A stretch of 42,963 bases of DNA from Specibacter cremeus (GTDB lineage Bacteria > Actinomycetota > Actinomycetes > Actinomycetales > Micrococcaceae). The translations under genes and the position numbers were made by a program. The stretch covers positions 11,449 to 54,411 of the forward strand of contig NZ_RWKQ01000016.1 of the NCBI RefSeq assembly GCF_003946885.1, read 5' to 3'. Position 1 is the first letter of the stretch; every line of letters begins with the position of its first letter. The notes beneath the pieces were generated by a model. The model was not told the origin of the DNA. It did not search any database and was given only the letters and a program-made list of their open reading frames with translations. Shown in pieces: positions 22,478-42,963 of this stretch.

Positions 22478-23092
22478 TCAGTCCGCCGTCGCCCGCAGTG
22501 AGGGCAGGACGGCGGCCACGACCCCGCCGGCAAACGCATCGACGCGCGTCGGCGGCGGCCCGTCGTCGGCGGTGCCGCCATGGAAGCACCACAGGAACGC
22601 CTGGTGCATGCAGGCGCCGGTCAGCGCCATCGCGGCCCCCTCGATGGGTGCGGTCGCGTCAATGCGTCCTCGAACCTGCTCGGCGGCCAGGTAGCCTTTC
22701 ACTCCATCGCTGATGATCTCGGGGCCGGTGCCGTGGGCGCGGACGGCATCCCGGTGCCGGGAGAGCAGGTCGGTGTCGGAGAAGATCGACATGCCGATCG
22801 GCAGCACCGTCCGGTAGAAGCCCGTCACCTCGACCACGATCAGATGAAGATTGCCGGCCACCGCCCCTGAGCCGGCAAGGCTCTCGGCACCGTCAACGAC
22901 CACGCCGACCTTCGGCAGCCGTTCGGCCAGCACGGCGAGGAAAAGGTCGATCTTGTCGTTGAAATGCCTGTACAGCAGGGGCTCGGAGCATCCCGCCGCC
23001 CGGGCGATCTCCTTGGTGGTGGTGCGGGCCAGTCCCCTGGAACGCATCACGCTGAGCGCACCATCCAGGATGGCTTCACGCGTGGATTTCAT
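22478..23092 (-). CDS. TetR-family repressor of the NmrA-type oxidoreductase
   Basis: 204 aa. The N-terminal TetR helix-turn-helix at residues 5-50 reads TREAILDGALSVMRSRGLARTT, then ARAAGCSEPLLYRHFNDK. The C-terminal ligand domain is divergent. ATG at 23092 has AGGAGGAGG upstream. It is divergent from the oxidoreductase, with two matched palindromes between them, so it very likely represses both. The inducer is unknown. Confidence 0.9.
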   Translation of the reverse strand: MKSTREAILDGALSVMRSRGLARTTTKEIARAAGCSEPLLYRHFNDKIDLFLAVLAERLPKVGVVVDGAESLAGSGAVAGNLHLIVVEVTGFYRTVLPIGMSIFSDTDLLSRHRDAVRAHGTGPEIISDGVKGYLAAEQVRGRIDATAPIEGAAMALTGACMHQAFLWCFHGGTADDGPPPTRVDAFAGGVVAAVLPSLRATAD

Positions 23093-23108
23093 GGCCTCCT
23101 CCTTGTCT

Positions 23109-23144
23109 GTTAGTAAATACTAACCTAGGATTAGTGAACACTAA
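23109..23144. promoter_or_regulatory. Two TetR operator palindromes
   Basis: GTTAGTA-AA-TACTAAC (23109-23124) and TTAGTG-AA-CACTAA (23131-23144) share the core TTAGT..AA..ACTAA. Their centres are 21 bp apart, two helical turns, so two dimers would bind the same face between the TetR and oxidoreductase promoters. Confidence 0.8.
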
Positions 23145-23204
23145 CCACGCGGCCGGGCGCTCGCCCACGAGGCGCGCCGGACCGCCCGCCATGAAGGAGA
23201 TGTG

Positions 23205-23996
23205 ATGGCATCGAGCATTTTGGTGACCGGCGGCACGGGCCGGCTTGGCACGCTGGTTGTCGGGCGCCTGCGCGCCGCCAGTGAGTCGGTGCGCGTGCTG
23301 AGCCGGCACGCGCACGGGACGGACGACGGCGGCGCGCGGGTGATCGGCGACCTCGCCACGGGTGCCGGCGTCGAGGCCGCGGTGGCCGGGATCCGGACGG
23401 TGGTGCACTGCGCCGGGAACGCCAAGGGCGACGCGGCCATGACCCGGACCCTGGTGCGGGCGGCCCAGGACGCGGGCGTGCAGCATCTGGTCTTCATCTC
23501 GGTGGTCGGCGCCGAGCGCGTTCCCGTGGTCAGCGGCGTGGATCGCGCCGTGTTCGGCTACTTCGCGGCCAAGCGCGCCGCCGAGCAGGTGGTCGCCGAA
23601 TCGGGCATCCCCTACTCGACGCTTCGCGCCACGCAGTTCCAGGAGTCGATGCTGGCCGTCGTGCGGCAGATGGCGAAGTCACCCGTGATCCCGGCGCCGA
23701 CGGGGACCCGGTTCCAGCCTGTGGCCGTCGACGAGGTGGCCGCCGCGCTGGTGGAGCTCGCGCTGGGTGAGCCGGCGGGTGCGGTCCCGGACCTGGGCGG
23801 TCCGCGCGCCTACCTGATGGCCGACCTCATCCGCGGTTACCTGGCCGCCACCGGCCGGCGCCGCCTGTTCCTGCCGGTGCGGTTCCCGGGCGCCGCGGCG
23901 GCGGCGATCCGGGCCGGGGCGAACCTCGTCCCTGAGCGCGCGGTCGGCAAGCAGACGTGGGAGGAGCTGCTGGCCGAACAGACGGCCGCACCCTAG
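23205..23996 (+). CDS. NAD(P)-binding atypical SDR / NmrA-like oxidoreductase
   Basis: 263 aa. The N-terminal Rossmann motif LVTGGTGRLG is that of atypical SDR/NmrA proteins. YFAAKRAAEQVVAESGIPYSTLRATQF is the typical segment following the missing or displaced catalytic Tyr. ATG at 23205 with AAGGAG 5 nt upstream. Members range from quinone reductases to redox sensors; substrate is unknown. Likely released by the divergent TetR. Convergent with the next SDR gene. Confidence 0.85.
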   Translation: MASSILVTGGTGRLGTLVVGRLRAASESVRVLSRHAHGTDDGGARVIGDLATGAGVEAAVAGIRTVVHCAGNAKGDAAMTRTLVRAAQDAGVQHLVFISVVGAERVPVVSGVDRAVFGYFAAKRAAEQVVAESGIPYSTLRATQFQESMLAVVRQMAKSPVIPAPTGTRFQPVAVDEVAAALVELALGEPAGAVPDLGGPRAYLMADLIRGYLAATGRRRLFLPVRFPGAAAAAIRAGANLVPERAVGKQTWEELLAEQTAAP

Positions 23997-27360: not shown

Positions 27361-27882
27361 TCAGTCGGGTGACGTTGCCCGCTGCATACTGGCTCGGACG
27401 GTTTTCATGGTCAGGAACATCGTCCGGTCATCGAAGGGCGATGGAATGAAACCGAAGTGCCGGTAGAACTCTGCGGCGTTCTCATCGATCGCATGGACCA
27501 GGAGGGCTCCCACGCCCACCGATTCGGCCACTCCAGTCACGCGCAGGATGGCGTCCTGCAGCAGTGATGCGCCCAGACCGGTCCTTTGGTGTTCCTGATC
27601 GACCGCCAGCCGTCCCAGCAAGATCACGGGGATGGGGTCCGGCATGTTGCGGCGCACGGCGCCGGGTGCCACGTCAAGCTCAACCGCCGATGCGACGAGC
27701 GCGTAGTAGCCAGCCACGATCGGTTCCCCGAGCGGACACGTGACGAAGGTCCGCGACGCACCCGAGGCTTCATTCTTGTGAGCACGGTCGCGCAGCCACG
27801 AATCCAGCGCGGCATTGCCGCTGTGGAAACCAGCCCGATCATGGTCCGCCGTCAGTGGAACGGGTCGGGCGTAGCGGCTCAC
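27361..27882 (-). CDS. GNAT acetyltransferase toxin (TacT-like)
   Basis: 173 aa from GTG at 27882. GNAT fold: LGRLAVDQEHQRTGLGASLLQDA contains the acetyl-CoA loop Q/R-x-x-G-x-G/A. FYRHFGFIPSP is the final strand and helix. In TacT-type systems the enzyme acetylates charged aminoacyl-tRNAs and halts translation. The start overlaps the DUF1778 stop (GTGA), which puts antitoxin first as usual. The exact tRNA target cannot be told. Confidence 0.88.
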   Translation of the reverse strand: MSRYARPVPLTADHDRAGFHSGNAALDSWLRDRAHKNEASGASRTFVTCPLGEPIVAGYYALVASAVELDVAPGAVRRNMPDPIPVILLGRLAVDQEHQRTGLGASLLQDAILRVTGVAESVGVGALLVHAIDENAAEFYRHFGFIPSPFDDRTMFLTMKTVRASMQRATSPD

Positions 27883-28154
27883 TTTTCGAAGACGGACGGA
27901 CGTTGCATCAACGCGACCAGTTCCGCCACCGGGCGGGCTGGTACTTCGAGGTGGCTCATGAAGTCGTTCCAAGCCTGTTGTGACGCTCCAAACACGCGCC
28001 GCTCGGACAGGATTTCTTCGGCCCGCTCAGTCAAGACCTGCACGGAAAACTCCGTGACGTTGCGGCCGAGCACAGCGGCAGCCCGCTCAATCGTCTGCTT
28101 CTGGCGGGCCGTGACACGCACAGCCAGGCGTTCATCTTTCGTCACCGCACCCAT
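27879..28154 (-). CDS. DUF1778 ribbon-helix-helix antitoxin (TacA-like)
   Basis: 91 aa. N-terminal ribbon-helix-helix strand RLAVRVTARQKQTIERAAAVLGRNVTEFSV, then a helical toxin-binding tail ending ALMQRPSVFEK. Family role: neutralise the GNAT toxin and repress the operon. ATG at 28154; a perfect palindrome starts 9 bp upstream of it. Confidence 0.9.
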   Translation of the reverse strand: MGAVTKDERLAVRVTARQKQTIERAAAVLGRNVTEFSVQVLTERAEEILSERRVFGASQQAWNDFMSHLEVPARPVAELVALMQRPSVFEK

Positions 28155-30209: not shown

Positions 30210-30271
30210 CACAACTAGCATAGGTGTGCGCGCAGTCACGTGCAAGCAGGGTGTTGCAAAGGACTACGACG

Positions 30272-30392
30272 GTGGTGGTCGAGCCCGTCGAGACCCGGCG
30301 GTCGAGCCCGTCGAGACCCGGCGGTCGAGCCCGTCGAGACCCCGTCGTCGAGACCCGGCGGTCGAGCCCGTCGAGACCCGCTGGTCGAAACC
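30272..30392. repeat. Palindromic repeat array 4
   Basis: Five or so forward units at about 22-23-bp steps, core GGTCGAGCCCGTCGAGACC, one of them shortened, then a half unit GGTCGAAACC. It sits directly next to the broken end of the NmrA-like pseudogene. Confidence 0.88.
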
Positions 30393-30423
30393 GCAGGTAC
30401 AGAGCCAGGGCGCCTGGGACGCT

Positions 30424-30713
30424 CAGGACGTTGCGCACCGCGCCGTAATCAACCAGCTCCGCATCATGCTCACCGCCGTGAGATCCGTGTGTGAATACGA
30501 TGCCCGTGACGCCCTCGACCGCCGCCGAGGGTGTAAGGCTCTCGTGAGGTCTCCGATGACGGTGAGGGTCCCGGCGGGAAACGAAGTCACCTGGGCATCT
30601 TTGCGCACCAACGCTCTAGTCTCAAACCCCGCACGGAGCGCCCCAGCAACGGCCAGTCTGCCGACGCTCCCGGTTGCCCCGACGACCAGCACGCTGGACA
30701 TGGTTGTAGGCAC
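30424..30713 (-). pseudogene. Frameshifted, truncated NmrA-like oxidoreductase
   Basis: GTG at 30713 with AGGAGA upstream opens MSSVLVVGATGSVGRLAV, an intact NAD(P)-binding start. After IGDLT the frame changes: the original frame gives Arg-rich nonsense, while the next frame reads ESLTPSAAVEGVTGIVF and HGGEHDAELVDYGAVRNV, a good continuation of an NmrA protein. That also stops after about 95 residues, where repeat array 4 begins, so the last two thirds are missing. One indel plus a truncation. Confidence 0.75.
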
Positions 30714-30777
30714 GAATCATCTCTCCTGACGGTTCCTGCGGAATACGGTTGCCTTCTGGGCCCCGTCGATCGGCGGG

Positions 30778-31650
30778 TCACGCCTCGGGGATGTCCCGGC
30801 CGAAGGCCTCTGGAGTCACGGTCTCCGGTTCCGGCCCGCCGCGCACGCCCGTGTCCAGTCCGTCGAGCGCCACGAGCTGGTCCTGGGTGAGCTCGAAGCC
30901 GAACACGTCGAAATTGGCGGCGATGCGTGCGGGGTTCACCGACTTCGGGATCGCCGAACGCCCCTCCTGCAGGTGCCAGCGCAGCATGACCTGGGCTGGC
31001 GTCTTGCCGTGCTCGGCGGCGATCTGGGCGATGACCGGGTCGTCGAAGGTGCTGCGCCCACCTCCGCGGTAGCTGGTGATGCCGCCCAGCGGCGACCACG
31101 CCTGGGTCAGGATCTGGTGCGCGGCGTTCGCCCGCTGCACGTCCGGCTGGGTGAAGTACGGGTGCAGCTCCACCTGGTTCACGGCCGGGATGACGCTCGA
31201 CCGGTCCAGGAGCGCCGCGAGCACCTCCGGCATGAAGTTGCTGACCCCGATCGCGCGGACGCGTCCCTCCGAAAGGAGGGTCTCCAAGGCGCGGTAAGCC
31301 TCGACGGTCTTGTCGAACTGGGTCGGGACGGGCTGGTGCAAAAGCAGCAGGTCGATCTGGTCGACGCCGAGCTTGCCCGCGCTCTTCTTGAAGGCGTGCA
31401 ACGTCTCGTCGTAGCCATAGTCGCTGATCCACACCTTGGTCTCGATGAACACCTCGGAGCGGTCCAGGCCGGAGTGCCGGATGCCGTCGCCGACCTCGCG
31501 TTCGTTGAAGTACGACGCGGCGGTGTCGATGAGGCGGTAGCCGGCGCGGAGTGCTTCTTCGACCGAGTTCGCGGTCACGTCGGGCGGGGTCTGGAAGACA
31601 CCGAAGCCCAGGGCCGGCATCTCCACACCGTTGTTCAAGGTCACGTTCAT
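30778..31650 (-). CDS. Aldo/keto reductase
   Basis: About 290 aa, cytoplasmic NADPH-dependent carbonyl reductase of the AKR5-like bacterial group. Catalytic tetrad visible: Asp and Tyr in IDTAASYFNE, Lys in ETKVW and His in LLLHQP. IPKSVNPARIAAN is the NADPH-binding motif. The ATG at 31650 has GGGAG 8 nt upstream and is preferred over the ATG at 31656. It lies just below a broken regulator gene on the same strand, likely its former controller. Substrate unknown. Confidence 0.93.
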   Translation of the reverse strand: MNVTLNNGVEMPALGFGVFQTPPDVTANSVEEALRAGYRLIDTAASYFNEREVGDGIRHSGLDRSEVFIETKVWISDYGYDETLHAFKKSAGKLGVDQIDLLLLHQPVPTQFDKTVEAYRALETLLSEGRVRAIGVSNFMPEVLAALLDRSSVIPAVNQVELHPYFTQPDVQRANAAHQILTQAWSPLGGITSYRGGGRSTFDDPVIAQIAAEHGKTPAQVMLRWHLQEGRSAIPKSVNPARIAANFDVFGFELTQDQLVALDGLDTGVRGGPEPETVTPEAFGRDIPEA

Positions 31651-31666
31651 GGTCATACTCCCGACT

Positions 31667-32318
31667 TTAGGTGTGCCGTTTGGATTGTGGGAGTGACTGG
31701 CAGTACACCCCTCGGGGCGCGGTCAGCAACCGACGTGCCGGATCGATTGTTCCGGCGAGGACATCGGGCACGAGCTCGAGGTCCCCGACGTCTGGGTGAT
31801 GGATGTGCTTGACGCCGGTGCGGTGGAAGCGAACGTTGTGGGCCACCCAGCGCAACCGGAAGGCGTCCCTTCGCGTGACGAGTTCGCCGATCAGATCGGT
31901 CAGGCCCTTGTCCCGCGGGTTCTGCCCGGCGTAGCCGCGCAGCGTGGCGACGATGTCGTCGGCGCCCTGTTCCCGGTCGGGGAAGAAGTTGCGGGCCGCC
32001 GGATTGAGGAACATGAAGCGGGCGGTGTTCGACCGGTTCGCAGGGTCGTCGAGGACCGGGGCGTAGAGCGCACGCCCGAGCGTGTTGGCCGCCACGAAGT
32101 TCATCCGGCGGTCGCGCACCCAGACCGGTGCGCCGGTGAGCGCGTCGAGGAAGCGCTGTAGGCCCGGCCGGACGCTTCCGACGGCGGACCGGCTGCGGTC
32201 CGGCCGCACGGGCGAGGTCGTGCAGGTGCTCGGCCTCGGCGTCGTCGAACCGGAGGGTGCGGGCCAGGCTGTCGAGGATCTCCGGTGACACCCCGGCGAG
32301 GTCGCCGCGCTCTGGCTG
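31667..32318 (-). pseudogene. Broken HTH regulator with MmyB-like ligand domain
   Basis: Two frames give the parts of one protein. ERGDLAGVSPEILDSLARTL (from 32318) is the end of an Xre helix-turn-helix. After about 35 residues the sense passes to another frame with VRPGLQRFLDALTGAPVWV, RFMFLNPAARNFFPD and RWVAHNVRFHRTGVKHIHHP, the MmyB-like ligand-binding domain. The DNA-binding start before ERGDL is gone: at that exact point the sequence turns into the tRNA-like site at 32316. A frameshift lies near 32180-32210, and the C-terminal end is altered too. Confidence 0.8.
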
Positions 32319-32345
32319 ACAAGATTTGAATCAGCGAACCCCTGG
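32316..32345 (-). other. tRNA-3'-end-like site 1 (degenerate attachment site)
   Basis: Thirty bases match the tRNA-Pro remnant at 33217-33246 at 24 of 30 positions without gaps, same orientation. It marks where homology of the HTH regulator stops. It is probably an old integration or recombination junction. Confidence 0.6.
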
Positions 32346-32439
32346 AAAACCCTGATCACAGCTGGTTCTTCCGAAAACTCGGATCGTCTCGATTTCCAGG
32401 CGTTGACAGAGAAGCGGGCGATTTGCTCGTTCCGAGTCC

Positions 32440-32679
32440 CTACGGAAGCAGTTCGAGCATCTGAGGTCGCGCCTTCATAGCGTGGATAACAAGTTCATTC
32501 CCGCTGTCAAAGACAAGAACGACGGTCTCCAGGAGACGTCCTTGCGTATCGAAACCGAGCCGCAGCTGCCTGGCGGGGCCCTGCTCGTCGAGGTCCTCAA
32601 TCCAGAGCGCCCAGCTCGCAGCCTGGACCGCACCGTCGGGAAGAATCCCGTGTTTGAGCGCCGAGTCGTGAACCTTCAC
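32440..32679 (-). CDS. Small BrnT-like toxin of a CopG-type module
   Basis: 79 aa. It starts MKVHDSALKHG, middle RQLRLGFDTQGRLLETVVLVF, end VIHAMKARPQML. The pattern of His near the start, two central strands and an Ala-Arg end recalls the BrnT/RelE-like toxin fold, but this is inference. GTG at 32679 overlaps the stop of the ribbon-helix-helix gene (GTGA). Such pairs are common in actinobacteria, and the toxic activity is probably ribonucleolytic. Confidence 0.72.
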   Translation of the reverse strand: MKVHDSALKHGILPDGAVQAASWALWIEDLDEQGPARQLRLGFDTQGRLLETVVLVFDSGNELVIHAMKARPQMLELLP

Positions 32680-32948
32680 GCGGCCGAGGCCGCCAGTGCT
32701 TCACGGATGACCTCGGAGCGTGTCTTCCCCTCACGCGCCGCTCGCGCATCGATAGCTGCGAGCTCCTCCAGCGTGAGGCGCAGCGCCACGACCTGCGACG
32801 GCTCCGCGCCGCGCCCAGGCCGGCCACGACCCCGCTTCTTCAACGCCCCGACGTCGTACCCAGCCTCAGCCTCGGCAGCCCAGGCAGCGATCTGCTCCTC
32901 CGTGACCGGCACGCCGTTGATCGTTTCGTCCGAAGCCATGTCATTCAT
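32676..32948 (-). CDS. Ribbon-helix-helix (CopG-type) antitoxin
   Basis: 90 aa. VTEEQIAAWAAEAEAGYDV is followed by a basic linker (KKRGRGRPGRG) and a C-terminal ribbon-helix-helix, VVALRLTLEELAAIDARAAREGKTRSEVIREAL. Starts at 32948 or at a second ATG at 32939. Neither has a ribosome site, and an A/T-rich promoter-like stretch sits just upstream, so the mRNA may be leaderless. Autoregulation is likely through the 9-bp repeats at the start. Confidence 0.82.
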   Translation of the reverse strand: MNDMASDETINGVPVTEEQIAAWAAEAEAGYDVGALKKRGRGRPGRGAEPSQVVALRLTLEELAAIDARAAREGKTRSEVIREALAASAA

Positions 32949-32963
32949 GTCATTAATGTAATA
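32937..32963. promoter_or_regulatory. 9-bp tandem repeats over the antitoxin start
   Basis: CATGTCATT (32937-32945), CATGTCATT (32946-32954) and AATGTAATA (32955-32963) are contiguous. They overlap both candidate start codons. Ribbon-helix-helix dimers bind repeated short boxes of this kind. Confidence 0.6.
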
Positions 32964-33169
32964 CGAAATCGAGGGAGTGTCGAGATCGGATGTTCTTCTC
33001 TGAGTGGCAACACCCCCTCGTCTGACCGCTCCGTACGACCCGCGCCTACGCGCACCTCCAGCACCCGCGAGAAGCTCGTGAGCGGCGGCGTCGACCGGTT
33101 CAATTCGCCCCGCCTGCTCGAATGGGTCGATGCGACAATACGGCCCGGCCGCACTCGGAGGATGTACAA
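32964..33169. other. Stretch without a recognised gene
   Basis: Between the CopG-type module and the tRNA-Pro remnant. Both strands have open frames but none gives a known domain or a good ribosome site. The side next to the antitoxin probably holds its promoter. Confidence 0.4.
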
Positions 33170-33198
33170 GAGGCAGTGCCCATAACGGACACTGCCTC
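33170..33198 (-). terminator. Terminator hairpin downstream of the tRNA-Pro remnant
   Basis: GAGGCAGTG (33170-33178) and CACTGCCTC (33190-33198) form a perfect 9-bp stem that extends inward with a wobble pair. On the minus strand it follows the tRNA-like 3' end by 10 bp, which is where a tRNA gene terminator is expected. Confidence 0.7.
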
Positions 33199-33208
33199 CT
33201 GCCAAATC

Positions 33209-33252
33209 TGGTCGGAGTGACAGGATTTGAACCTGCGACCCCTTGGCCCCAG
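33209..33252 (-). other. 3' fragment of tRNA-Pro gene (attachment-site remnant)
   Basis: On the minus strand this reads CCAAGGGGTCGCAGG, then TTCAAATCCTGT, then CACTCCGACCA: the anticodon-stem 3' side, T-arm and acceptor end of an actinobacterial tRNA-Pro with encoded CCA. The 5' half of a tRNA is not present in the bases that follow (33253 onward), so this is not a functional gene. Typical of a tRNA 3' end displaced when an element integrates in it; the native terminator follows. Confidence 0.75.
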
Positions 33253-33833
33253 ATACCCGCATCGGCCCATTTGGCCGATTCTCGGGGACTTCTGCGTGCC
33301 TCTGGGGCCGTTTGCCAGGCGTGCAACCCATGGGATGCATAGTTCTGGTCCCGGTTTGGTCCCGGCGCTTCCGGGCTCTCACTGCCAGACGGAACCCGCT
33401 ACTTCTCCTTCCGACGCAGATTGACCCGAAGTTTACTCCCCGCCTTCGCGTCTCTGTCATAGCTCGAAACAGTGACACCCTCAAGACGCGCAAGGAGCAT
33501 GCGGTGCTCTTGGTCGTCGGGGACTGGACAGGCTACCGTGAGCAAGCAACCTACTGCAAGTTGGTGCCAAGATCGGTGTCGGCGAGTCCAGGCGAGTACT
33601 GCTACACCATCGGGGCGGTCTGCGGCATCTTGCCACGCCTACTTCGTGGCACCCCACCGCGTTGCTCGCCGACCTTGCACCGGCCTTCCCCGACCCGGCC
33701 TACGCGCTACAGTGGTTTAGGTCTACACGTTCAATGACATCGCCGGCTGCCGGTGGTGGCGGCAGGTGTCGACCGGCGGCCAGCGGTCCCCGGAAACATC
33801 GGACAAGTGAAACGCCGACCGGAGGCGAGGACA
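33253..33833. other. 580-bp stretch without a recognised gene, upstream of fhs
   Basis: Next to the tRNA remnant is an inverted repeat (ATCGGCC 33261-33267, GGCCGAT 33273-33279) and a direct repeat TGGTCCCGG at 33346 and 33357, features often seen beside integrase sites. No intact integrase is visible. Open frames exist but none is recognisable. The part near 33700-33830 must carry the fhs promoter. Confidence 0.45.
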
Positions 33834-35558
33834 ATGACATCAACTCCGACATCGGGACGGGACCCGCGGTCCAGTCTGGACATCGGACGTGCGGCCACGC
33901 TGAAACCCATCGCGGACATCGCGGCAAAGATGGGCATCGGCGCGCATCTACTCGAGCCTTACGGTACAGGGGTGGCAAAGATCGACCTGGCAGCGATCCA
34001 GGAGCTCGCCGACCGGCCGCTGGCGAAGTACGTCGTGGTCTCCGGAATCACGCCCACACCCCTGGGGGCAGGCAAGACCACCACGACGGTTGGCCTTGGC
34101 CAGGGGCTGAATCACACCGGAAGGCAAGCCACCATCGCGATCCGCCAAGCCTCGATGGGGCCGACGCTCGGGATCAAGGGGGGTGCCGCCGGTGGCGGAC
34201 ACAGCCAGGTGATCCCGATGGAGCGGTTGAACCTGCACCTGACGGGGGACATACACGCCGTCACCGCCGCCCACAACCAGCTTGCCGCCATGCTGGACAA
34301 CCACCTATACCGAGGCAACCCCCTGGGAATCGACCCGGCCTCGATCACGTGGCGCCGAGTGCTGGACGTCGACGACCGCTCGCTGCGGGACATCGTGGTG
34401 GGGCTTGGCCCGCGGACGAACGGCGTGACCAGGCAGACCGGTTTCGATATCACCGCCGCATCGGAATTGATGGCCACACTGGCACTGGCCACCTCGCTAC
34501 GCGACTTACGCGAGCGCCTGGGGCGCGTGGTGGTTGGCTACACCTCCGGCGCCCAAGAGCCCGTAACCGCCGAGCAGCTGCGGGCAGCTGGGACGATGAC
34601 GGTCCTGCTGCGCGACGCGCTCAAGCCGAACCTGCTGCAAACCATTGAGAACACCCCGGCACTGGTGCACTGTGGCCCGTTCGGGAATATCGCCACCGGC
34701 AACTCCTCGATCGTCGCCGATCTGATTGGCATTCGTGCCGGAGACTACTTGGTCACGGAAGCCGGATTCGGCGCCGACATGGGCGCAGAGCGGTTCTTCA
34801 ACATTAAGTGCCGCGTCTCCGGCCTGGTGCCTGACGCCGCCGTGGTCGTCGCGACCGTACGGGCGCTGAAGTTGCACTCGGGTCGACACAAGGTCGTGGC
34901 CGGACGTCCCCTGCCGGAGGAAATGCTGGCGGAAAATCCCGACGACGTCTATGCGGGAGCGGACAATCTGCGCCGTCAAATCGCCAACATTCGGTTGCAC
35001 GGCGTCACGCCCGTGGTGGCGATCAACGCGTTCTCCAGCGACTATCCCTCCGAGCATGCCGCAATCCGCGAGATCGCGGCGCAGGTCGGCGTCAGGTGCG
35101 CCCGCTCAACGCACTTCGAGGACGGCGGTGCCGGGGCCGCCGAGCTGGCCGACGCCGTGGCCGAAGCCGCCGACGAGCCGGGCGATTTCACCTACCTCTA
35201 CCCTGCCGAGGCCAAGCTGCGCGAGAAGATCGAGGCGATCGCCACCCGCGTCTATGGCGCCGACGGGGTGGATTACACGCCGGCTGCCGCCTGGTCGCTG
35301 GAGCACTACGAACAGTGTGGCTGGGGAGACCTGCCGCTGTGCATGGCCAAGACGCACCTGTCGCTGTCCTCGGACCCGACGCTGCTCGGAGCCCCCACCG
35401 GATGGCGGTTGCCGATCCGGGAGGTGCGGGCCTCCGTGGGCGCAGGGTTCATCTACGCCATCTGCGGCCAGATGCAGACGATGCCCGGTCTCGGCTCCGA
35501 CCCGGCCGCAGCGCATATCGACATCGACGAGAACGGGCTGACCGTCGGACTGTTCTGA
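33834..35558 (+). CDS. fhs: Formate-tetrahydrofolate ligase
   Basis: 574 aa, ATP-dependent synthesis of 10-formyltetrahydrofolate from formate and tetrahydrofolate for purines and formyl-methionine. TPTPLGAGKTTTTVGL near residue 73 is the ATP-binding loop of the family. EAGFGADMGAERFFNIKC and the C-terminal GQMQTMPGLGSDPAA are signature segments. Length is normal. ATG at 33834 with GGAGG 8 nt upstream. It lies alone between two tRNA-like direct repeats (33209 and 35667) rather than with other folate genes, so it may have been gained by transfer. It would use one-carbon units also made by the glycine cleavage system. Confidence 0.96.
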   Translation: MTSTPTSGRDPRSSLDIGRAATLKPIADIAAKMGIGAHLLEPYGTGVAKIDLAAIQELADRPLAKYVVVSGITPTPLGAGKTTTTVGLGQGLNHTGRQATIAIRQASMGPTLGIKGGAAGGGHSQVIPMERLNLHLTGDIHAVTAAHNQLAAMLDNHLYRGNPLGIDPASITWRRVLDVDDRSLRDIVVGLGPRTNGVTRQTGFDITAASELMATLALATSLRDLRERLGRVVVGYTSGAQEPVTAEQLRAAGTMTVLLRDALKPNLLQTIENTPALVHCGPFGNIATGNSSIVADLIGIRAGDYLVTEAGFGADMGAERFFNIKCRVSGLVPDAAVVVATVRALKLHSGRHKVVAGRPLPEEMLAENPDDVYAGADNLRRQIANIRLHGVTPVVAINAFSSDYPSEHAAIREIAAQVGVRCARSTHFEDGGAGAAELADAVAEAADEPGDFTYLYPAEAKLREKIEAIATRVYGADGVDYTPAAAWSLEHYEQCGWGDLPLCMAKTHLSLSSDPTLLGAPTGWRLPIREVRASVGAGFIYAICGQMQTMPGLGSDPAAAHIDIDENGLTVGLF

Positions 35559-35661
35559 CACCTCACGTCGGTCAGCCTGCCCTGCGCGCCGGTGGGCAGC
35601 GTAGTCCGCGGGGATCTGGGCTGCTCACGGCGAGTGCGGGTGTCCACGTCGTCCTGAGACG

Positions 35662-35874
35662 TCACATGGTCGGGCGGACAGGATTTGAACCTGCTGTTTC
35701 CGCTTCCTCAGCCTCCGCTACGACTCGGTCCGCGGCGCGAAGGGTGAGCTGCTCCTCCAGTGCAACCCAGTCCGCACACAACTCCGGCGAAAGGTCTGTT
35801 CGCTTCAACAGAGTCTGCAGACGACGCGCAGATTGCAGCGCCAACGTAGGCCCGGCAGGAATCGTGCCGTCCAT
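35662..35874 (-). CDS. Short ORF ending inside a tRNA-like sequence
   Basis: 70 aa, starts MDGTIPAGPTLALQSARR, central LLKRTDLSPELCADWVALEEQL helical and charged. The last nine codons (GSNPVRPTM) are read from the tRNA-like site, so the original end has been replaced. It looks like a gene fragment joined to an attachment site. The main part is not recognised. Confidence 0.4.
   Translation of the reverse strand: MDGTIPAGPTLALQSARRLQTLLKRTDLSPELCADWVALEEQLTLRAADRVVAEAEEAETAGSNPVRPTM
35667..35694 (-). other. tRNA-3'-end-like site 3
   Basis: T-arm and acceptor end of a tRNA (GCAGGTTCAAATCCTGT, then CCGCCCGACCA). It agrees with 33209-33236 at 25 of 28 positions in the same orientation. No cognate 5' half is nearby. 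Forms the right direct repeat around fhs. Confidence 0.7.
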
Positions 35875-35901
35875 CAAGGCCTTGATCGTGACAGGGTTGT
35901 T

Positions 35902-35994
35902 TTAATCATCGCGATCACCGCGGAAGGTGTCTCCCAGTCGGCTGGTCTCGGTTTCGAGAACAGCCGCAGCTTCTGCCCGCCGATCGTACGCCAT
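35902..35994 (-). CDS. 30-residue ORF directly after res
   Basis: MAYDRRAEAAAVLETETSRL, then GDTFRGDRDD and stop. Begins 6 bp past the res stop, with GGGAAG upstream. Charged, helical, no known family. Could be a small accessory peptide of the restriction operon or the leftover start of a longer gene. Confidence 0.35.
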   Translation of the reverse strand: MAYDRRAEAAAVLETETSRLGDTFRGDRDD

Positions 35995-35999
35995 GGCGG

Positions 36000-38900
36000 T
36001 CACTTCCCGACGAGTTCCATGAGACGGTCGAAGCCGTCGACCTGCTTGTAGACGACCTCGCCCTGGTGCTTCTTCGTGAGGGTCTCGAAGAACCGGGTGG
36101 CGCACTCGATCTTGGCGTCCTCGATGCCCTTGAGTTCCAGACTCGACATGGTGCCCTTGGTCTCGGCAACAAAGTAGACGTGCTTGACCGACCCCTCGTT
36201 GAACGCGATCGCCCAGTCGGGGTTGTAATCACCGACCGGGGTCGGGATGAAGAACCCACGCGGGAGCTTCGCATACACGGCGACCTCCTTGCTGGTATCG
36301 AGCTTGGTAACGAACTCGCGCTCCACCTTCGAATCGGTCACGACGTAGTCATAGACATGCTTCGTGAGCTTCTCACCCGCCTTGCGAAAATCCTGCGTCG
36401 ACTGGTTCTCCGTGAAAATCTTCGTGTCGAATCGATCTTCCAGCGCGTCATATGTCAAGTGTTCGACGATGACAGTTGCCTTCTCCTCGTTGATCAGCCG
36501 GGCGGTCTCGCTGATGAACTGCTCCGGGTTCAGCCTGAACTTCGCGAAGGTATCCGGCCGCACGCCACGAAGGATCGCTGCCGCGGTACGCCTGGTCAGC
36601 TGCGTCTTCTCGGTGATCTCACCCAATAGGTCGTACTTCACCGACGAGTTCGCAGTAATCTGTTCGGTCTCGCGCTTGTGCCCGTCCAAGCGGAATGCCT
36701 GCCCACTCGCGAGCTGCGCGGCCTCCAACTCGCCGATCTGCTTGCCGTGCTCGATCACGTACGACAGGCCGGTGACGTTCAGCTGTTTATCGAGCGCCTT
36801 GAGCGCCTTGTCGATCAGCTCATTCGAGTCGAACTCGACCTGGTAGACGGCCTTGTGGTTGATCCGACCCCACAGTTCCTTGAACTCGGCCTTGGCGAAG
36901 TTTTTCTCGTTCAACGGGATTCTCTTCATGGCCCGGTCATCGCCCCCGATCATCGAGACGTCGAGGTACAGCGCGTCGACCAGCGGCCATATGTAGTCCA
37001 TGACTGGGCTCAGGATCTCTGAGGTGGAGGCTGCGAACGTGCCGTTCTCCTTGGCATCCTTGTAAACCTCGGAGACCGTCTGGTCCTCGTTGATGTAGTC
37101 GTTCTTGATCAAGTACATGTACAGGGCATTGGCGACATCCTTCTCCAACGTCGACTCGCCATCCGGGGTCTTGATTGTCTTGCCCACGAAGTAGTCGACG
37201 GAGGCCTTGCGCGGGCGCGAGGACAGCGATTCCGCGATCTCTTTCTGCAGGCCGCCGACGAAGTCGGTGTAGGACTCGTCTGTCACGACGGTCAGTTCGT
37301 TGATTTCGTGGACGGTGATGGGGTTGTCCATCCGCTCTCCATGCTGGTCGACGGCGAGCCGCAGGCCACGGCCGATCTCCTGACGGCGGGAGACCGTATT
37401 GTCACTCTTCTTCAACATCCCCATGACGAACACGTTGGGGTTGTCCCAGCCCTCGCGCAACGCAGAGTGGGAGAAGATGAACCGCACCGGCTCCGCAAAC
37501 GACAACAGGCGTTCCTTGTCCTTGAGGATCAGGTCGTAGGCGTCGATGTCCGTGGACTGTCCCTTGTCGTCACCCCGGCCCGAGACCTTGCCGTCGATCT
37601 GCCGCTTCGACTTCTTGTCAATTGAAAAGTAGCCCTCATGGACCGCGTTGACCTCGTCGCGCTGGAGATACCTCATGTATGCCGCTGTACCCTCGTCGAG
37701 TTCCAACTCACCAAGGACCTCTGCACAGATGGCCGCGTACTCCTCCTCAAACATGCGCGCATAGTCACCGAGCGTGTCCTCGCGGTCGTAGTCGCGGTAC
37801 TTCACCACCTCGTCGATGAAGAACAAGGACAGCACCTTGATGTCCTGCGCAAACAGTTCGCGTTCCTTCGCGATGTGGGCACGAACCACCTCACGGATCT
37901 GGATGCGTCGCTTCGATTCCTCGGTTGCGTCCCGATCGGCGAGCTGCCCGGCGGTGACGATATCGCCGCTGGACAATTCGATGATGTCCTGGTTGGCGTC
38001 GATGTTGGTGATGAACAGCGGCTGGCCCTCCGGTTTATATGCCTCAATGCCGTTGCTCAGGTCGTGGAGGTTGGAGCGCTTCGTCACGATTCGGGTCTGC
38101 CGCTTGATTGGGCCGCCCTTGGTCTGCACTTCCAGCTCGATCCGGGCGGTGGGCGCCGCGCCCTTCTTCAGCAGGATCTCGTCAAGGTACAGGTAGGCGG
38201 TGGAACCCGCCAGCCCCTTGACGGTGATGCCGCGCACTGCAATCTTCTTTACCAGCTTGGCGTTGTACGCATCCAGTGCGTCAAGGCGGTGGACCTTGGT
38301 GTGCGCGACCTTGTGGGTGGCCGAGTAGCGCAGCACCATGAGAGCGTTGAACTCCGCCAGAGCCTTCAAGGAGTTGTCTGCGCCGATCTTCTGGGGTTCG
38401 TCAATGACGACGATCGGCCGGTTGGCCTTGATCACGTCGATCGGGCGTCGTGACTGGAAGTCGTCGAGCACGTCGTAGATGCGGCGCTGGTCCTTGCCGG
38501 TGGCGTTGAATGCCTGGATGTTGATGATCATCACCTGCACCCCGCCGTCGGAACTGAACCGCTCCAGCTCATGCAATTGGGATGAGTTGTAGATGAACGA
38601 GCGAGGCTTGGTGCCGTAGATGGACTGGAAATGGTCCGCAGTCATGTCGAAGGTCTTCTTCACACCCTCACGGATCGCAACCGACGGCACGACGATGATG
38701 AACTTGGACCATCCGTACCGCCTCTGCAGTTCCATGAGCGTCTTGATGTAGACGTACGTCTTACCCGTACCGGTCTCCATTTCCACGTCAAGGTTCGGCG
38801 CCCCCAGTGCCGCCTTCGAGTCCGTCAAGGCACTCGACTTGGGCAGGTTACGCGAGGCCTGCACCCGGTGGACGTTCTCCAGCAACTGTGCGCGTTTGAG

Positions 38901-39083
38901 TTCGATGGGGGCGTTGGCCAGGCCCGAGTCCGTTTCGAACAACGCGGGCGCGGACGACGGCGTCACCGCACCGGGGTCGATCCGGTACGAGATGCCGTCG
39001 CGCTTGGGTTGGCCGGCGAAGACCTCGACGACGGCGTCAACGGCCTCGGTCTGGTACTGCTGAACCTTGAACTGAAGCTTCAT
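36000..39083 (-). CDS. res: Type III restriction enzyme Res subunit
   Basis: 1027 aa. Superfamily 2 helicase: METGTGKT (102-109) is Walker A, VVIDEPQKIG (226-235) is the DExx motif, SALREGWDNPNVF and EIGRGLRLAVD are motifs V and VI. The C-terminal PD-(D/E)xK nuclease is seen as DYNPDWAIAF and FVAETKG near 950-985. With Mod it cuts DNA that carries two inversely oriented unmodified sites, moving by ATP. ATG at 39083; weak ribosome site. It lies 146 bp below the AlbA_2 gene in the same direction. A/T-ending codons are more frequent than in the core genes to the left. Confidence 0.93.
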   Translation of the reverse strand: MKLQFKVQQYQTEAVDAVVEVFAGQPKRDGISYRIDPGAVTPSSAPALFETDSGLANAPIELKRAQLLENVHRVQASRNLPKSSALTDSKAALGAPNLDVEMETGTGKTYVYIKTLMELQRRYGWSKFIIVVPSVAIREGVKKTFDMTADHFQSIYGTKPRSFIYNSSQLHELERFSSDGGVQVMIINIQAFNATGKDQRRIYDVLDDFQSRRPIDVIKANRPIVVIDEPQKIGADNSLKALAEFNALMVLRYSATHKVAHTKVHRLDALDAYNAKLVKKIAVRGITVKGLAGSTAYLYLDEILLKKGAAPTARIELEVQTKGGPIKRQTRIVTKRSNLHDLSNGIEAYKPEGQPLFITNIDANQDIIELSSGDIVTAGQLADRDATEESKRRIQIREVVRAHIAKERELFAQDIKVLSLFFIDEVVKYRDYDREDTLGDYARMFEEEYAAICAEVLGELELDEGTAAYMRYLQRDEVNAVHEGYFSIDKKSKRQIDGKVSGRGDDKGQSTDIDAYDLILKDKERLLSFAEPVRFIFSHSALREGWDNPNVFVMGMLKKSDNTVSRRQEIGRGLRLAVDQHGERMDNPITVHEINELTVVTDESYTDFVGGLQKEIAESLSSRPRKASVDYFVGKTIKTPDGESTLEKDVANALYMYLIKNDYINEDQTVSEVYKDAKENGTFAASTSEILSPVMDYIWPLVDALYLDVSMIGGDDRAMKRIPLNEKNFAKAEFKELWGRINHKAVYQVEFDSNELIDKALKALDKQLNVTGLSYVIEHGKQIGELEAAQLASGQAFRLDGHKRETEQITANSSVKYDLLGEITEKTQLTRRTAAAILRGVRPDTFAKFRLNPEQFISETARLINEEKATVIVEHLTYDALEDRFDTKIFTENQSTQDFRKAGEKLTKHVYDYVVTDSKVEREFVTKLDTSKEVAVYAKLPRGFFIPTPVGDYNPDWAIAFNEGSVKHVYFVAETKGTMSSLELKGIEDAKIECATRFFETLTKKHQGEVVYKQVDGFDRLMELVGK

Positions 39084-39229
39084 CCGACGCTGTGCTTTCT
39101 TTCGTAGTAGTCGCTGGATCCATTGTGCGCACGAAGACCGTGGAGACCGTGCTGACAGGCGGGGACGCGCCTGGCGAATTGGGATGTCTTTCGTAGATCC
39201 TTGGATAGCTGCGGGGTTTGGGTGGGCAT

Positions 39230-40879
39230 TTACGAGAGCACCCATCTCGGCCGGGCGCGGGTGCCATCGTTGTGGATCGTTCCCGCATCGCGCATCTTGC
39301 CCAGCAGGTTTCCGACCTTGTTGCGCTTCTGCCCGTCATCCAGGGCCGCGCTCAGCTGGGACAGCAACAGACCGTCAATGTCGGCACGGCTCGCTGATCC
39401 GAACTTCTCTAGATAGTCGCGGACCTGCTTGATGTAGAACGCGTCATCTTGGCCACGGGTGCGGATGTACTCCGCGCGGGTCCCAGCGGCGTCTGCGACA
39501 GCGGCGGCAACTCGCAAGTGCGGCTTGCGGCCTTCAATGAGCTTCGCCTTCCGCAAGCGGGCCGCGGCCTCGGTACTGATGGGCAGGTGCTTCTGCACGC
39601 GGTCCAGCACGAGCACGTCTTCCAAGGGCAGGTCTTCACGAGCCATGAGAAGTTTGGAGTACGCCTCGTCAATCGCGGCGCCGAAGACCGTCAGCTTGAC
39701 CTCACCGGGTGCGCCCAGGTCGTAGTCAGGTAGTGGGAGGAAGCGCTTGCGCTGCTGGTCGACGATGCGATGGATGCCGTTGCCCATGTGGTCAATGAGG
39801 TTCAGCTCGGTCATGGCGGCGACGAGGAACGGGTTGCGGTATCGGCGTGGCACCCTCTCGCTGAGCATGTAGGCGTCCGGGGTTTGGTCGTAGAACTCTC
39901 CGACGCTGATGAACTCGACCCGGTCGACGCGTTCGGTGACGATGACCCTGGAGTTCTGCCGGTAGTCTTGGTGCGCGATGCAGTTGTAGAGCGCCTCGTG
40001 CAGACTGGATTCGTTGTACTTCTCGATCTCGCGGTAAATCAGCTCATTGGGCGGGTTGAAGCGGATCTGCACGTTCCGAATCCGCTGAACCAGTTTGGTT
40101 GCGGTCAGCAGGAACGGCGTTGTGAAGTGTTCGTACGCCGATTCTTCACCGATGAGTTTCCACGTCAGTTCCGCCATGTGGGGGCTGAGCAGGTGTGCCG
40201 AGATGTCACGTCCGAGGAGCAGCAGCGCGGCGCGGGTGATGTGCCCGTCGAGGGTGAGCCGGGCCTTGGCCAGTAACGTGGCATCGTCCCAGCCGACGAT
40301 CTGTTCTGCCAGCCTCGGGTTCCGTTCCGCAAACCCTTGCCGGGCCCGCGCCAGGGCCGCAGGGTCCAAGTGTTCCAGCGTGGCGCCGGGGACTGGTTCG
40401 GCGGTCCAGTCGGTGGCGATGGCCTGGTTGCGGATTTCGTCTTGCTTGGCAAGCCCCAGGGGTGTCAGGCTCTCCCCCGCCCGGGCCCGGTAGTCGCCCT
40501 TCCATGCAATGGGGAAGCCGCGCGGGGCGGGCGGAATCTCAAAGAGAACCACGCGCCCGCCGGCATGGCTGAGCACGTGGATCTGGCGGAAGGAGACGCT
40601 CGGGTCGGTGTTCTGGCTGATCTGAAGCTTCAGGCTGTCAAGGCGTGCGGGGTCCTCCCGGTAGGCGGTGCCGACGACCTTGCGGGTCTTGTCGTCGACG
40701 CCGAACACCAACCACGCTGCGTCGACGCCGCGCAGATTCGCCTCGTTCGCGAGGGCGGAGAAATACTCACCGATCTTGTCGGTGTCATAGTTGCCGCCCG
40801 CACGCTTGAACTCGACCACCTCGCTCTCGCCGGCGGCGAGGAGAGAGTCGAGCAGTTCCAACAGATCCGCGTCACTCAT
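39230..40879 (-). CDS. AlbA_2 (Schlafen-type) ATP-binding protein in the RM operon
   Basis: 549 aa. N-terminal Slfn AlbA_2 domain (residues 10-140): ESEVVEFKRAGG, then ANEANLRGVDAAWLVFGVDD. The middle region, ESSLHEALYNCIAHQDYRQNS and MGNGIHRIVDQQRKRFLP, is the HATPase_c_4 domain found with it. A C-terminal winged-helix-like region follows. Such proteins recur between mod and res genes of type III systems, but their function there is not settled. It could be regulation, or a defence role since eukaryotic Schlafens cleave tRNA. ATG shares its first base with the mod stop (TGATG). Confidence 0.88.
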   Translation of the reverse strand: MSDADLLELLDSLLAAGESEVVEFKRAGGNYDTDKIGEYFSALANEANLRGVDAAWLVFGVDDKTRKVVGTAYREDPARLDSLKLQISQNTDPSVSFRQIHVLSHAGGRVVLFEIPPAPRGFPIAWKGDYRARAGESLTPLGLAKQDEIRNQAIATDWTAEPVPGATLEHLDPAALARARQGFAERNPRLAEQIVGWDDATLLAKARLTLDGHITRAALLLLGRDISAHLLSPHMAELTWKLIGEESAYEHFTTPFLLTATKLVQRIRNVQIRFNPPNELIYREIEKYNESSLHEALYNCIAHQDYRQNSRVIVTERVDRVEFISVGEFYDQTPDAYMLSERVPRRYRNPFLVAAMTELNLIDHMGNGIHRIVDQQRKRFLPLPDYDLGAPGEVKLTVFGAAIDEAYSKLLMAREDLPLEDVLVLDRVQKHLPISTEAAARLRKAKLIEGRKPHLRVAAAVADAAGTRAEYIRTRGQDDAFYIKQVRDYLEKFGSASRADIDGLLLSQLSAALDDGQKRNKVGNLLGKMRDAGTIHNDGTRARPRWVLS

Positions 40880-42738
40880 CAGATCGTGCGTACCTCCGTG
40901 CCTGTGGGTGAAAGTTCCTTGAAAATCTGCTCCGCGTTGATACGTGCGGCGTCCGAGGCAAAGGCGTCGTCACGGAACACCGCACGCAACGGACGCCGGG
41001 CTGCGATGGCACGCACGACGTCGGAACTCACCGACTCGGCGAAGCATGCGATCAGCGCGTCATCATCGACCGCGAACACCTCACAGCCATCAATATCTTC
41101 ACGCACCATCGGCAGTGTCAGTTCCAGGCCCCAGTCGAGCAGCAACTGGAACAGCAAGTCCTCGCCAGATCGGTCTGATTTTATACTGGCTTCAAGCGCA
41201 CCCAGCAGGTCTTGGTCGACGCCATCAGTAGGTCGCAGAACATCAGTCATACTGGTGCTGTCCACTTGAAATGCCCTGAAGCCGAGATCTCCCGACACAG
41301 TCCCTGACTCCAGGACTTCGTTACAGACCTTCTGGATTCTCTTCCGTGCAAGGTCGGCCACAGTCGAGTACTGCCCTCCATCGGGCATGTCTTCAGCGAC
41401 CTGCACTTCGATGAACGAACGAGTACCACGGTCAGCAGCATTCGCACGAAGGACGGCGTCCGCCGTAGTTCCCGAACCGGCGAAGAAATCGAGCACGACT
41501 GAGTCGGAGTCCGTGGCAATTTGCAGTAGACGTGAGATCAAGCGTACGGGTTTCGGAGTGACAAACAGGTTCTCGCCGCTGGAGGCACCCATTAGTTTAT
41601 GAAGCTCCTGCTTCGAGTTTCGAGTGCTTCCGACTTCTTTCCAGTGCCAATAGGTCTGGGGGATGACCCCATCCCGAACCTCAGACAGAAATCGTTTAAT
41701 TCCTGGACGCACAGAACCGTCACCCCACCAAATACGGTCATCCGCATCGAGCTGATCGAACCTAGACTTACTGATCCGCCAATAGCTTCCCGGTGGCGGC
41801 CCCTCGATAACACGGCCGGAAGGCGTCGTGATGGAGTATTGCCCCTGATCGTACGGATTCCGTGCCGCCATGTCTCCAAGTAGCCAAGGCCCGCGTGGGT
41901 CATCATCAAGGTTCTTGTAGCGCGCGACCATGTCGCCCGTGCGTGGCAAAAGATTAGGCCGCCAAATATCCGCATTCCTTGCAAAAAGGAGGAGATATTC
42001 GTGATCCTCACTCAAGTGTCGGGCCGAGTTCTTTGGACTGTCCATCTTGTGCCAAATCACAGTGGCGATGAAGTTGGACGTTCCAAAGACCTGATCTGCC
42101 AACTGCCTGAGCGCTCCGATCTCATGGTCGTCAATCGAAATAGCGATCAGACCGTCGTCAGATAGAAGATTCCGCGCCAGTCTCAACCTCGGATACATCA
42201 TGCTTAGCCAGTCGGAGTGGTAGCGGCCGTTGCTGTCGCTGTTGGCCACAAGGCGAGTGCCGGTCTCATCACTCTGGCAGGAGCGGGCGAGAAAGTCATC
42301 AACGGACTCTGCAAAGTCGTCGTCGTAAATAAAGTCCCCACCGGTATTGTAGGGCGGGTCAATATAGATCAGCTTGACCTTGCCCAAGTACGACTCCTGC
42401 AGCAGCTTCAGCGCATCTAGGTTGTCACCCTCAATGAACAAGTTCTTGGTCGTGTCGAAGTCGACCGACTCCGCCCGCACGGGTCGGAGAGTCTTGGCGA
42501 TCGGCGCATTTGCAGCAAACGCGGCGGCACGCTTGCCTGGCCAGTCGAGCTGGTACCGTTCCTGCGGGCCCTCAACGATGTGGTCGCTCAGCTCCTGACG
42601 GAGCAGGTCAAAGTCAACTGCAGTAGTCACGTTGCCCTTCGAGTCGCGGGACTCGGTGATCACGCTCGGGAAGAGCTCGGCGATCTTCTCGATGTTGCGG
42701 GCCGTGAGGTCGGGTGAGTGCAGGGTACGCTTCTCCAT
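40879..42738 (-). CDS. mod: Type III modification methyltransferase Mod
   Basis: 619 aa beta-class N6-adenine methyltransferase. IYIDPPYNTG (DPPY at 127-130) comes before DFFAGSGTTADAV (FxGxG at 419-423), the beta-class order. The variable target-recognition region lies between them, about 145-400, and differs from family averages as expected. A C-terminal segment ends ARINAEQIFKELSPTGTEV. ATG at 42738 or GTG at 42741. It modifies the Res recognition site and gives specificity to the complex. Directly upstream is the end of a paralogous mod gene. Confidence 0.94.
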   Translation of the reverse strand: MEKRTLHSPDLTARNIEKIAELFPSVITESRDSKGNVTTAVDFDLLRQELSDHIVEGPQERYQLDWPGKRAAAFAANAPIAKTLRPVRAESVDFDTTKNLFIEGDNLDALKLLQESYLGKVKLIYIDPPYNTGGDFIYDDDFAESVDDFLARSCQSDETGTRLVANSDSNGRYHSDWLSMMYPRLRLARNLLSDDGLIAISIDDHEIGALRQLADQVFGTSNFIATVIWHKMDSPKNSARHLSEDHEYLLLFARNADIWRPNLLPRTGDMVARYKNLDDDPRGPWLLGDMAARNPYDQGQYSITTPSGRVIEGPPPGSYWRISKSRFDQLDADDRIWWGDGSVRPGIKRFLSEVRDGVIPQTYWHWKEVGSTRNSKQELHKLMGASSGENLFVTPKPVRLISRLLQIATDSDSVVLDFFAGSGTTADAVLRANAADRGTRSFIEVQVAEDMPDGGQYSTVADLARKRIQKVCNEVLESGTVSGDLGFRAFQVDSTSMTDVLRPTDGVDQDLLGALEASIKSDRSGEDLLFQLLLDWGLELTLPMVREDIDGCEVFAVDDDALIACFAESVSSDVVRAIAARRPLRAVFRDDAFASDAARINAEQIFKELSPTGTEVRTI

Positions 42739-42783
42739 CACGCACCAGCCCCGACCAGTGCGCGAGCGACAGCCCGCGTGCCA

Positions 42784-42963
42784 TCACAGCGACTTGACCT
42801 CCGTATGCGGGGAGAGTTCACGGAAGATCTGCTCCGTATTGATGCGCGCCGCATCATCAGAGAACTCCTCGTCGAGGAAGACCATGCGCAGCGGCTGCCG
42901 GCCGGCAAGCTCGGTGACGAGACCGCGCGGCAGCTCTCTCTCTACTCTCTCTCTCTCTCTCTC
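42784..42963 (-). CDS. C-terminal end of a second Mod-type methyltransferase, cut by window edge
   Basis: Last 59 residues: ELPRGLVTELAGRQPLRMVF, then DEEFSDDAARINTEQIFREL and SPHTEVKSL. Over the last 45 residues most positions match the end of the neighbouring Mod, so this is a paralogue, same strand, 45 bp upstream. The visible start is an Arg/Glu repeat coded by the CT tract (GAGAGA on this strand). Frame stays open to the window edge. One res gene thus has two mod genes beside it. Confidence 0.8.
   Translation of the reverse strand, partial: ERERERVERELPRGLVTELAGRQPLRMVFLDEEFSDDAARINTEQIFRELSPHTEVKSL
42934..42963. repeat. CT dinucleotide tract in the second mod gene
   Basis: Five CT steps, then an interrupting A after the next T, then nine or more CT steps running off the window. 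Lies in coding sequence. Changes in repeat number would shift the frame, since the unit is 2 bp. It may instead be an assembly artefact at the contig end. Confidence 0.7.

Follow-up and report, generated by a model that had tools for sequence, protein, structure and literature searches.

Mobile elements that share a target gene have been described as accumulating side by side. In tandem accretion and the decay of cis-mobilizable elements (CIMEs), same-target elements stack, and the older ones lose their integration genes and keep their attachment sequences (PMC5704250). With respect to the ssrA islands of Dehalococcoides, 15 are without an integration module and the island beside the gene is taken to be among the newest (PMC3146451); an additive flexible island of Methylophilaceae contains recurring 20-bp repeats of the tRNA-Lys 3′ end (PMC10872708). 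In the case of phages employing tyrosine integrases, the tRNA 3′ end is contained in the common core (PMC9262239), and paired direct arm-type repeats have been described for Giles and L5 (PMC3203893). Here we report analyses on a 42,963-nucleotide stretch of the Specibacter cremeus genome (the window, i.e. bases 11,449-54,411 of the 84,291-base contig C8; the genome comprises 4.31 Mb in 98 contigs), in which a first-pass annotation had noted three sites resembling the 3′ end of tRNA-Pro in series. Our results make it highly probable that tyrosine-integrase elements inserted repeatedly at tRNA-Pro(GGG), and that deletions then removed the integrases and left cargo behind.

Three copies of the tRNA-Pro(GGG) 3′ end

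A blastn search of the whole of C8 with the 77-base tRNA-Pro(GGG) as query yielded, besides the tRNA itself, three matches at E<0.1, all in the same orientation as the tRNA (Table 1). Site 3 is identical to the tRNA at 27/28 positions (96%, E 6e-8), site 2 at 39/42 (93%, E 7e-13) and site 1 at 28/34 in ungapped alignment (82%, E 1e-4), or with 30 identities over 36 columns when one gap is allowed. Each site is a copy of the tRNA-Pro(GGG) 3′ end, in the orientation of the tRNA. Their previously noted coordinates were correct to within a few bases, and the 24/30 identity counted earlier for site 1 was reproduced.

The 35.6 bits of the weakest site (site 1) were reached by none of 200 dinucleotide shuffles of C8, the best of which scored 31.9. 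When 32 distinct tRNA genes of the genome, in which 49 tRNA places were found, were used as queries, every C8 match at E<0.05 was either one of the three sites or the intact tRNA, and Pro-GGG was the best-matching tRNA for each site. A scan of the window for the T-arm 14-mer TGACARGATTTGAA at up to one mismatch gave three occurrences, all on the + strand, where 0.00 were expected.

The source gene itself is present on the same contig. The intact tRNA-Pro(GGG), of 77 bases, lies at C8:60165-60241 on the - strand, 5.75 kb to the right of the window end, with its 3′ end pointing toward sites 1-3; tRNA-Pro had been proposed as the source from the letters alone, together with a search for the intact gene, which thus turned up in the right orientation. 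As in a tRNA-targeted element, the intact tRNA gene stands at one end of the region and direct repeats of its 3′ end (sites 2 and 3) stand at the far edge. The G+C content is 62.6% between sites 1 and 2, 66.1% between sites 2 and 3 and 60.8% from site 3 to the tRNA, compared with 70.8 and 71.4% in the flanking core, i.e. lowered as expected of acquired DNA.

The assembly contains a single N in a CT repeat where two mod genes meet (window 42930-42963, L005:91-125; C8:54412), and a mod open reading frame at L005:91-1782 extends into this gap. The window stops one base short of the N, and the link from the window to the tRNA therefore spans the gap between the two mod genes. A colinear operon in two other loci (L161 and L164) supports the join at C8:54412; this colinearity being its present support, the join is a caveat on the assembly.

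The acceptor end of site 2 (33209-33222) is one base off tRNA-Pro(CGG) and two off tRNA-Pro(GGG), the remainder of the site fitting GGG. Since this end is one base nearer to CGG, tRNA-Pro(CGG) was considered as the main source of site 2; it was rejected because the T-arm and anticodon side fit GGG (42 bases, E 7e-13, for GGG versus 31 bases, E 2e-8, for CGG). The acceptor end may be of mixed GGG/CGG origin, or may have mutated after orphaning.

An attachment half-site and an integration hotspot in relatives

Judged by its sequence features, site 2 is an attachment half-site, consisting of a hairpin, a core and arm-like repeats. The tRNA end and its adjoining hairpin are together 78-84% identical over ~80 bases to the tRNA 3′ end plus hairpin of three relatives (G021, G010 and G003), and likewise to the orphan copies in two others (G004 and G018). 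Over 45 bases, the core shares 91% identity with a stretch in mycobacteriophage HH92 and related Giles-type phages. This stretch is not annotated as attP in the HH92 record; because it lies 100 bp from the integrase gene and is identical at 46/46 positions to the tRNA-Pro(GGG) of the present genome, we read it as the presumed attP of Giles-type phages.

A direct repeat pair, TGGTCCC-N4-TGGTCCC, stands on the right-hand side of site 2, at 137 bases from where the core starts; 0.02 occurrences of it are expected per window with one mismatch allowed. Among 256 loci scanned, the pair was found elsewhere only in the integrase-bearing element of G030, where it is present at both ends and, on the matching side, stands at 138 bases from the start of the core; a further five loci matched, each a copy of the site-2 place itself. 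The repeat is likely to be an arm-type integrase-binding pair. Arm-type repeats of this kind beside a core are a feature of integrated islands, and, judged by sequence, candidates for them occur here at site 2 alone, no second TGGTCCC pair being found beside site 3 or the intact tRNA.

Hairpins of the GGCAGTGTCC...GGACACTGCC type (L133-L152, L069-L093) stand after either tRNA-Pro(GGG) or tRNA-Pro(CGG), depending on the relative, a distribution that looks as if the hairpin had moved between the two genes. The hairpin type was considered as proof of an ancestral tRNA flank, in which role it is weakened by the occurrence of the same family after tRNA-Pro(CGG) in several relatives.

The same tRNA was compared in 25 relatives, 22 from the genus and three from other genera of the family (G009 with only 1.4 kb of left flank). 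A full-length tRNA-Pro(GGG) lies beside der in all 25. Its 3′ side is variable: in several relatives the DNA is collinear with C8 up to about window position 17,311 and then stops, and one more sizeable piece, within window 22,477-23,975, is shared by G010, G006 and G004. Five relatives carry a single element at tRNA-Pro(GGG), with an orphaned 3′ end and an integrase, in one case broken, beside the tRNA. In G004, a 15-kb island lies between an orphaned tRNA end (46/46) and the tRNA, which is adjoined by a tyrosine integrase (PF00589, E 1.5e-23). The island of G018 spans 4.1 kb and has an orphaned end of 36 bases; its integrase beside the tRNA is divided between two reading frames, and one of the pieces gives a match to PF00589 (E 8.5e-15). 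The same layout recurs in the wider family, in G378 (8.7 kb), G189 (16 kb) and G030 (~63 kb by coordinates, from the fetched ends); the G189 element appears phage-like by eye, and its integrase is 64% identical to that of G004. The 3′ side of tRNA-Pro(GGG) is, therefore, an integration hotspot in relatives, with integrases present, and these five elements provide intact, partly decayed and decayed stages at one tRNA. A literature search for tRNA-Pro integrase islands in Arthrobacter returned nothing on this site among the matches listed.

A second copy of the tRNA end is present in 3 of 23 genus genomes (G000, G004 and G018) and the end is single in the other 20, as counted with a 32-base pattern allowing two mismatches, which is blind to sites 1 and 3. 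At the DNA level, none of the 22 genus relatives has the fhs, res or toxin-antitoxin segment at the tRNA; at other places in their genomes, G019 and G008 carry fhs (68-69% identity) and G011 carries res (73%). Nor, at that level, does any of the 22 carry the three segments colinear and undisturbed, an arrangement that the first-pass annotation had named as evidence against integration.

The absence of an integrase, also noted previously, holds for the whole contig. PF00589 domains are encoded at six places in the genome, none of them on C8, and relics of the G004 and G018 integrases were likewise not found on C8; the integrase expected of an island is thus missing. With the G030 integrase as query (E<=1e-6), the sole relative in the genome is 34% identical over part of its length and lies on another contig (C28). 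Between fhs and site 3 there are 108 bases, and 108 bases also separate the helicase gene at the end of the restriction operon from the tRNA, where relatives carry the integrase.

Taken together, these results are best explained by a stack of insertions that has decayed. The tRNA-Pro(GGG) 3′ end would serve as the attachment site for tyrosine-integrase elements (phages and islands), with each insertion restoring the tRNA gene from the copy carried by the element and stranding the former 3′ end as an orphan at the far edge, so that new elements would land beside the tRNA and older ones would be displaced outward. At least one element with a Giles/G030-type attachment site would have entered at site 2, and site 3 (partial) and site 1 (more decayed) would derive from further insertions or be junctions formed as the stack decayed. 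Deletions would then have taken the integrases and the integrase-side arms, also truncating a small gene at site 3 and, at site 1, a regulator gene. The cargo that survived would comprise fhs, a type III restriction operon and the two toxin-antitoxin-like genes. The number of events and the deletions are inferred. If new elements land beside the tRNA, the most recent arrival would be the restriction segment, and the earliest the segment beyond site 2. Identity to the tRNA drops with distance from it, from site 3 (96%) via site 2 (93%) to site 1 (82%); the copies are short, however, and one inherited difference alters these percentages, so we infer the order of events, solely from the position and decay of the copies, with corresponding caution.

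Cargo, truncated genes and alternative explanations

The genes beside the sites bear out the first-pass annotation: the pair noted there as toxin-antitoxin encodes a CopG-type protein and a small partner, and fhs and the type III restriction operon are likewise confirmed (Table 1).

Table 1. Positions of features in the window, numbered from its first base
Feature	Position	Strand	Description
MmyB-type regulator pseudogene	31667..32310	-	5′ end cut at site 1, frameshifted; PF17765, E 5.9e-44
Site 1	32311..32344	-	decayed copy of tRNA-Pro(GGG) T-arm and acceptor, tRNA positions 41-74
Toxin-antitoxin-like pair (small partner and ribbon-helix-helix protein)	32440..32945	-	PF01402 for 32676-32945
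Hairpin	33170..33198	-	9-base inverted repeat, by eye, directly 3′ of site-2 tRNA end
Site 2	33209..33250	-	attR-type half-site core, 42 bases of tRNA-Pro(GGG) 3′ end
Direct repeat pair TGGTCCC-N4-TGGTCCC	33346..33363	+	likely arm-type pair
fhs, formate--tetrahydrofolate ligase	33834..35558	+	PF01268, E 5.9e-240, for 33837-35558
Site 3	35667..35694	-	28 bases of tRNA-Pro(GGG) 3′ end
Remnant of gene cut at site 3	35695..35994	-	protein match to Rhodococcoides kyotonense gene
res, type III restriction subunit	36000..39245	-	PADLOC REase_III, E 0; PF19778, PF04851
Schlafen/AlbA_2 protein within operon	39230..40879	-	PF04326, E 2.6e-16
mod, type III methyltransferase	40879..42741	-	MTase_III, E 6.8e-207

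The CopG-type (ribbon-helix-helix) protein encoded at 32676-32945 has a sub-cut-off likeness to NikA-like/MobA mobilization proteins, and no family was named for its small partner by Pfam, NCBIfam or PADLOC. DNA matches to the toxin-antitoxin segment, of up to 77% identity, are present in 37 of 396 genomes of the order, and to fhs (E<=1e-100) in 27 of the 396, this genome being counted in both. The matches to MTase_III and REase_III identify mod and res together as a type III restriction-modification operon, which continues beyond the window with a second mod gene, a DUF4391 gene (PF14335) and the SNF2 helicase gene (PF00176). Homology was also considered as a means of locating cassette boundaries and was rejected, as other copies match only over or near the genes and do not bear on the sites. 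When window 30500-42900 was compared with plasmid and phage records, any one place covered at most 7% of it.

Two further toxin-antitoxin-like pairs lie to the left of site 1, at window 21330-22459 (a RES-domain protein with a weak, sub-cut-off Xre-like partner) and 27361-28154 (a GNAT protein with a TacA1-type antitoxin). Recurring GTCTCGACAGGCTCGACCACC-type stretches, seen by eye at window ~12,060-12,190, 18,260-18,360, 19,550-19,750 and 30,230-30,440 and at L005:6010-6095, are probably repeats between genes that resemble repetitive extragenic palindromes.

Both outer sites adjoin damaged genes. The helix-turn-helix gene noted previously as losing its start at site 1 is the MmyB-type regulator gene, which is cut there: the DNA matches of many of its homologues end at window 32312, its reading frame is broken internally and its N-terminal part was not found on C8. 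A pattern scan for regulator homologues at site 1 gave none, the pattern probably being too strict. At site 3, two remnant pieces (E 0.007 and 1.9e-7) match, in order, residues ~14-123 of the product of a 260-residue R. kyotonense gene (L210:8684-9466) that adjoins the same type of restriction operon; the rest of the gene is missing. Since sites 1 and 3 directly adjoin truncated genes, they may be junctions left by deletions.

Several observations weigh against repeated insertion as we reconstruct it. The arm-like repeats stand beside site 2 alone, and on one side only, and the hairpin at this site is, given the occurrence of its family after tRNA-Pro(CGG), weaker evidence than it appears. The open reading frames called to the left of site 2 do not include the gene for a 598-residue protein (an acyl-CoA dehydrogenase by eye) that flanks the tRNA or the orphan in G010, G004 and G018. 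Sites 1 and 3 abut truncated genes, not former tRNA flank, and the core of site 3 comprises 28 bases, compared with 36-46 in the orphans of the five relatives. At the protein level, the match of the regulator continues in register to the far edge of site 1, which we take to be a chance extension because the DNA there fits the tRNA well (30/36 columns). In comparisons with other genomes, the similarity of the fhs, toxin-antitoxin and restriction segments breaks off at the genes or close to them rather than at the sites, and no cassette is therefore seen moving as a unit.

Some of these observations would be accommodated if a composite island carrying both fhs and the restriction operon had entered once, at site 2, with sites 1 and 3 being later scars of deletion or duplication. 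Such a single entry, which we regard as possible but unlikely, fits both the restriction of a full attachment half-site to site 2 and the truncated genes at sites 1 and 3; the second and third tRNA-end copies, in the right orientation, nevertheless need a source, the commonest being repeated insertion, and different elements use this tRNA in relatives. It is very improbable that the tRNA fragments were imported, as attP cores or phage tRNA pieces, by ordinary recombination with no integrase action at this locus. Phages do carry such cores, as the HH92 core exemplifies, and several enterobacterial phages carry tRNA-Pro genes matching site 2 (site 3 had no match in phages), yet all three copies lie on the 3′ side of, and are oriented as, the very tRNA that they match, and elements with integrases occupy the same tRNA in relatives. 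Chance resemblance, or an origin as functional parts of unrelated genes, is scarcely credible, for although the in-register regulator match means that part of site 1 could be decayed coding sequence, the shuffle controls oppose chance at every site and do so most strongly at sites 2 and 3, and the 14-mer count far exceeds expectation.

Repeated insertion followed by deletion thus remains our preferred explanation, in a form narrower than that first proposed. That the sites derive from tRNA-Pro, at a hotspot with integrases in relatives, supports repeated integration at a tRNA gene, but not the separate arrival of a whole cassette at each site. Attachment anatomy is confined to site 2, and sites 1 and 3, which lie at truncated genes, may be deletion junctions. 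By the tests made, the region falls short of a complete island, as it lacks the integrase and has one complete half-site only.

The restriction operon elsewhere and comparison with described systems

From 583 confirmed helicase loci 80 were kept (L153-L232), 11 of which hold less than 3 kb upstream. In these loci, which come from many phyla, the gene order SNF2 helicase-DUF4391-mod-(mod-AlbA)-res, which here extends from window 36000 to L005:5757, recurs, with helicases 56-92% identical. DUF4391 is without a PADLOC match, and the best PADLOC model for the helicase is a candidate named HKD+Snf2; in the literature searched, no paper was found that treats DUF4391 together with restriction-modification.

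A same-strand tRNA lies within 3 kb upstream of the helicase at three of the 80 loci and in two of the three it is tRNA-Pro(GGG), with the operon following downstream at 226 bp in Pseudomonas guariconensis (L207) and at 2.7 kb in an Actinobaculum (L158). It is conceivable, but in our assessment quite improbable, that in distant bacteria resident tRNA-Pro integrases, acting in trans, have repeatedly inserted the SNF2 helicase-DUF4391-mod-(AlbA)-res operon on the 3′ side of tRNA-Pro(GGG), as a cassette that has no integrase of its own. Counting against such delivery, neither L207 nor L158 contains a flanking repeat of the tRNA end within the locus, and 77 of the 80 loci have no same-strand tRNA within 3 kb upstream. 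Given the small number of cases and the 11 loci with less than 3 kb upstream, the association of the operon with tRNA-Pro is only a lead.

With respect to the closest described systems, the likeness to Giles-type phages concerns the attachment site. HH92 has a direct repeat pair beyond its core, with 12-base spacing and ~150 bases from the core start, that is laid out like the pair at site 2; the sequences differ, however, the HH92 arm being TTGGGGTCAAA versus TGGTCCC (11-base spacing) here, and unlike in Giles-type phages, no phage gene was recognised at the present locus. The Methylophilaceae island resembles the region in the recurrence of short tRNA 3′ ends within one variable region, whereas the tRNA and the phylum differ. 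The Dehalococcoides islands share with it serial direct repeats of the 3′ end of an RNA gene, on one side of the intact gene and with different cargo; there, however, the target is ssrA and the recombinase a Ccr-like serine recombinase, whereas here the target is tRNA-Pro(GGG) and the relatives carry PF00589 tyrosine integrases.

The likeness to tandem accretions and CIMEs would lie in same-target elements standing side by side, the older ones having lost integration genes and kept attachment sequences. In contrast with CIMEs, one attachment half-site only is complete here, on one side at site 2, and two segment ends, at sites 1 and 3, cut genes, which makes cis mobilisation unlikely at this locus. 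With at least one copy looking like the scar of a phage-like element, we read the region as a decayed but ordinary integration hotspot. The process, island accretion at tRNA ends, is already known and the example is new, providing a clear actinobacterial case in which a tRNA gene gathers cargo for defence and metabolism, the machinery that delivered it being lost afterwards.

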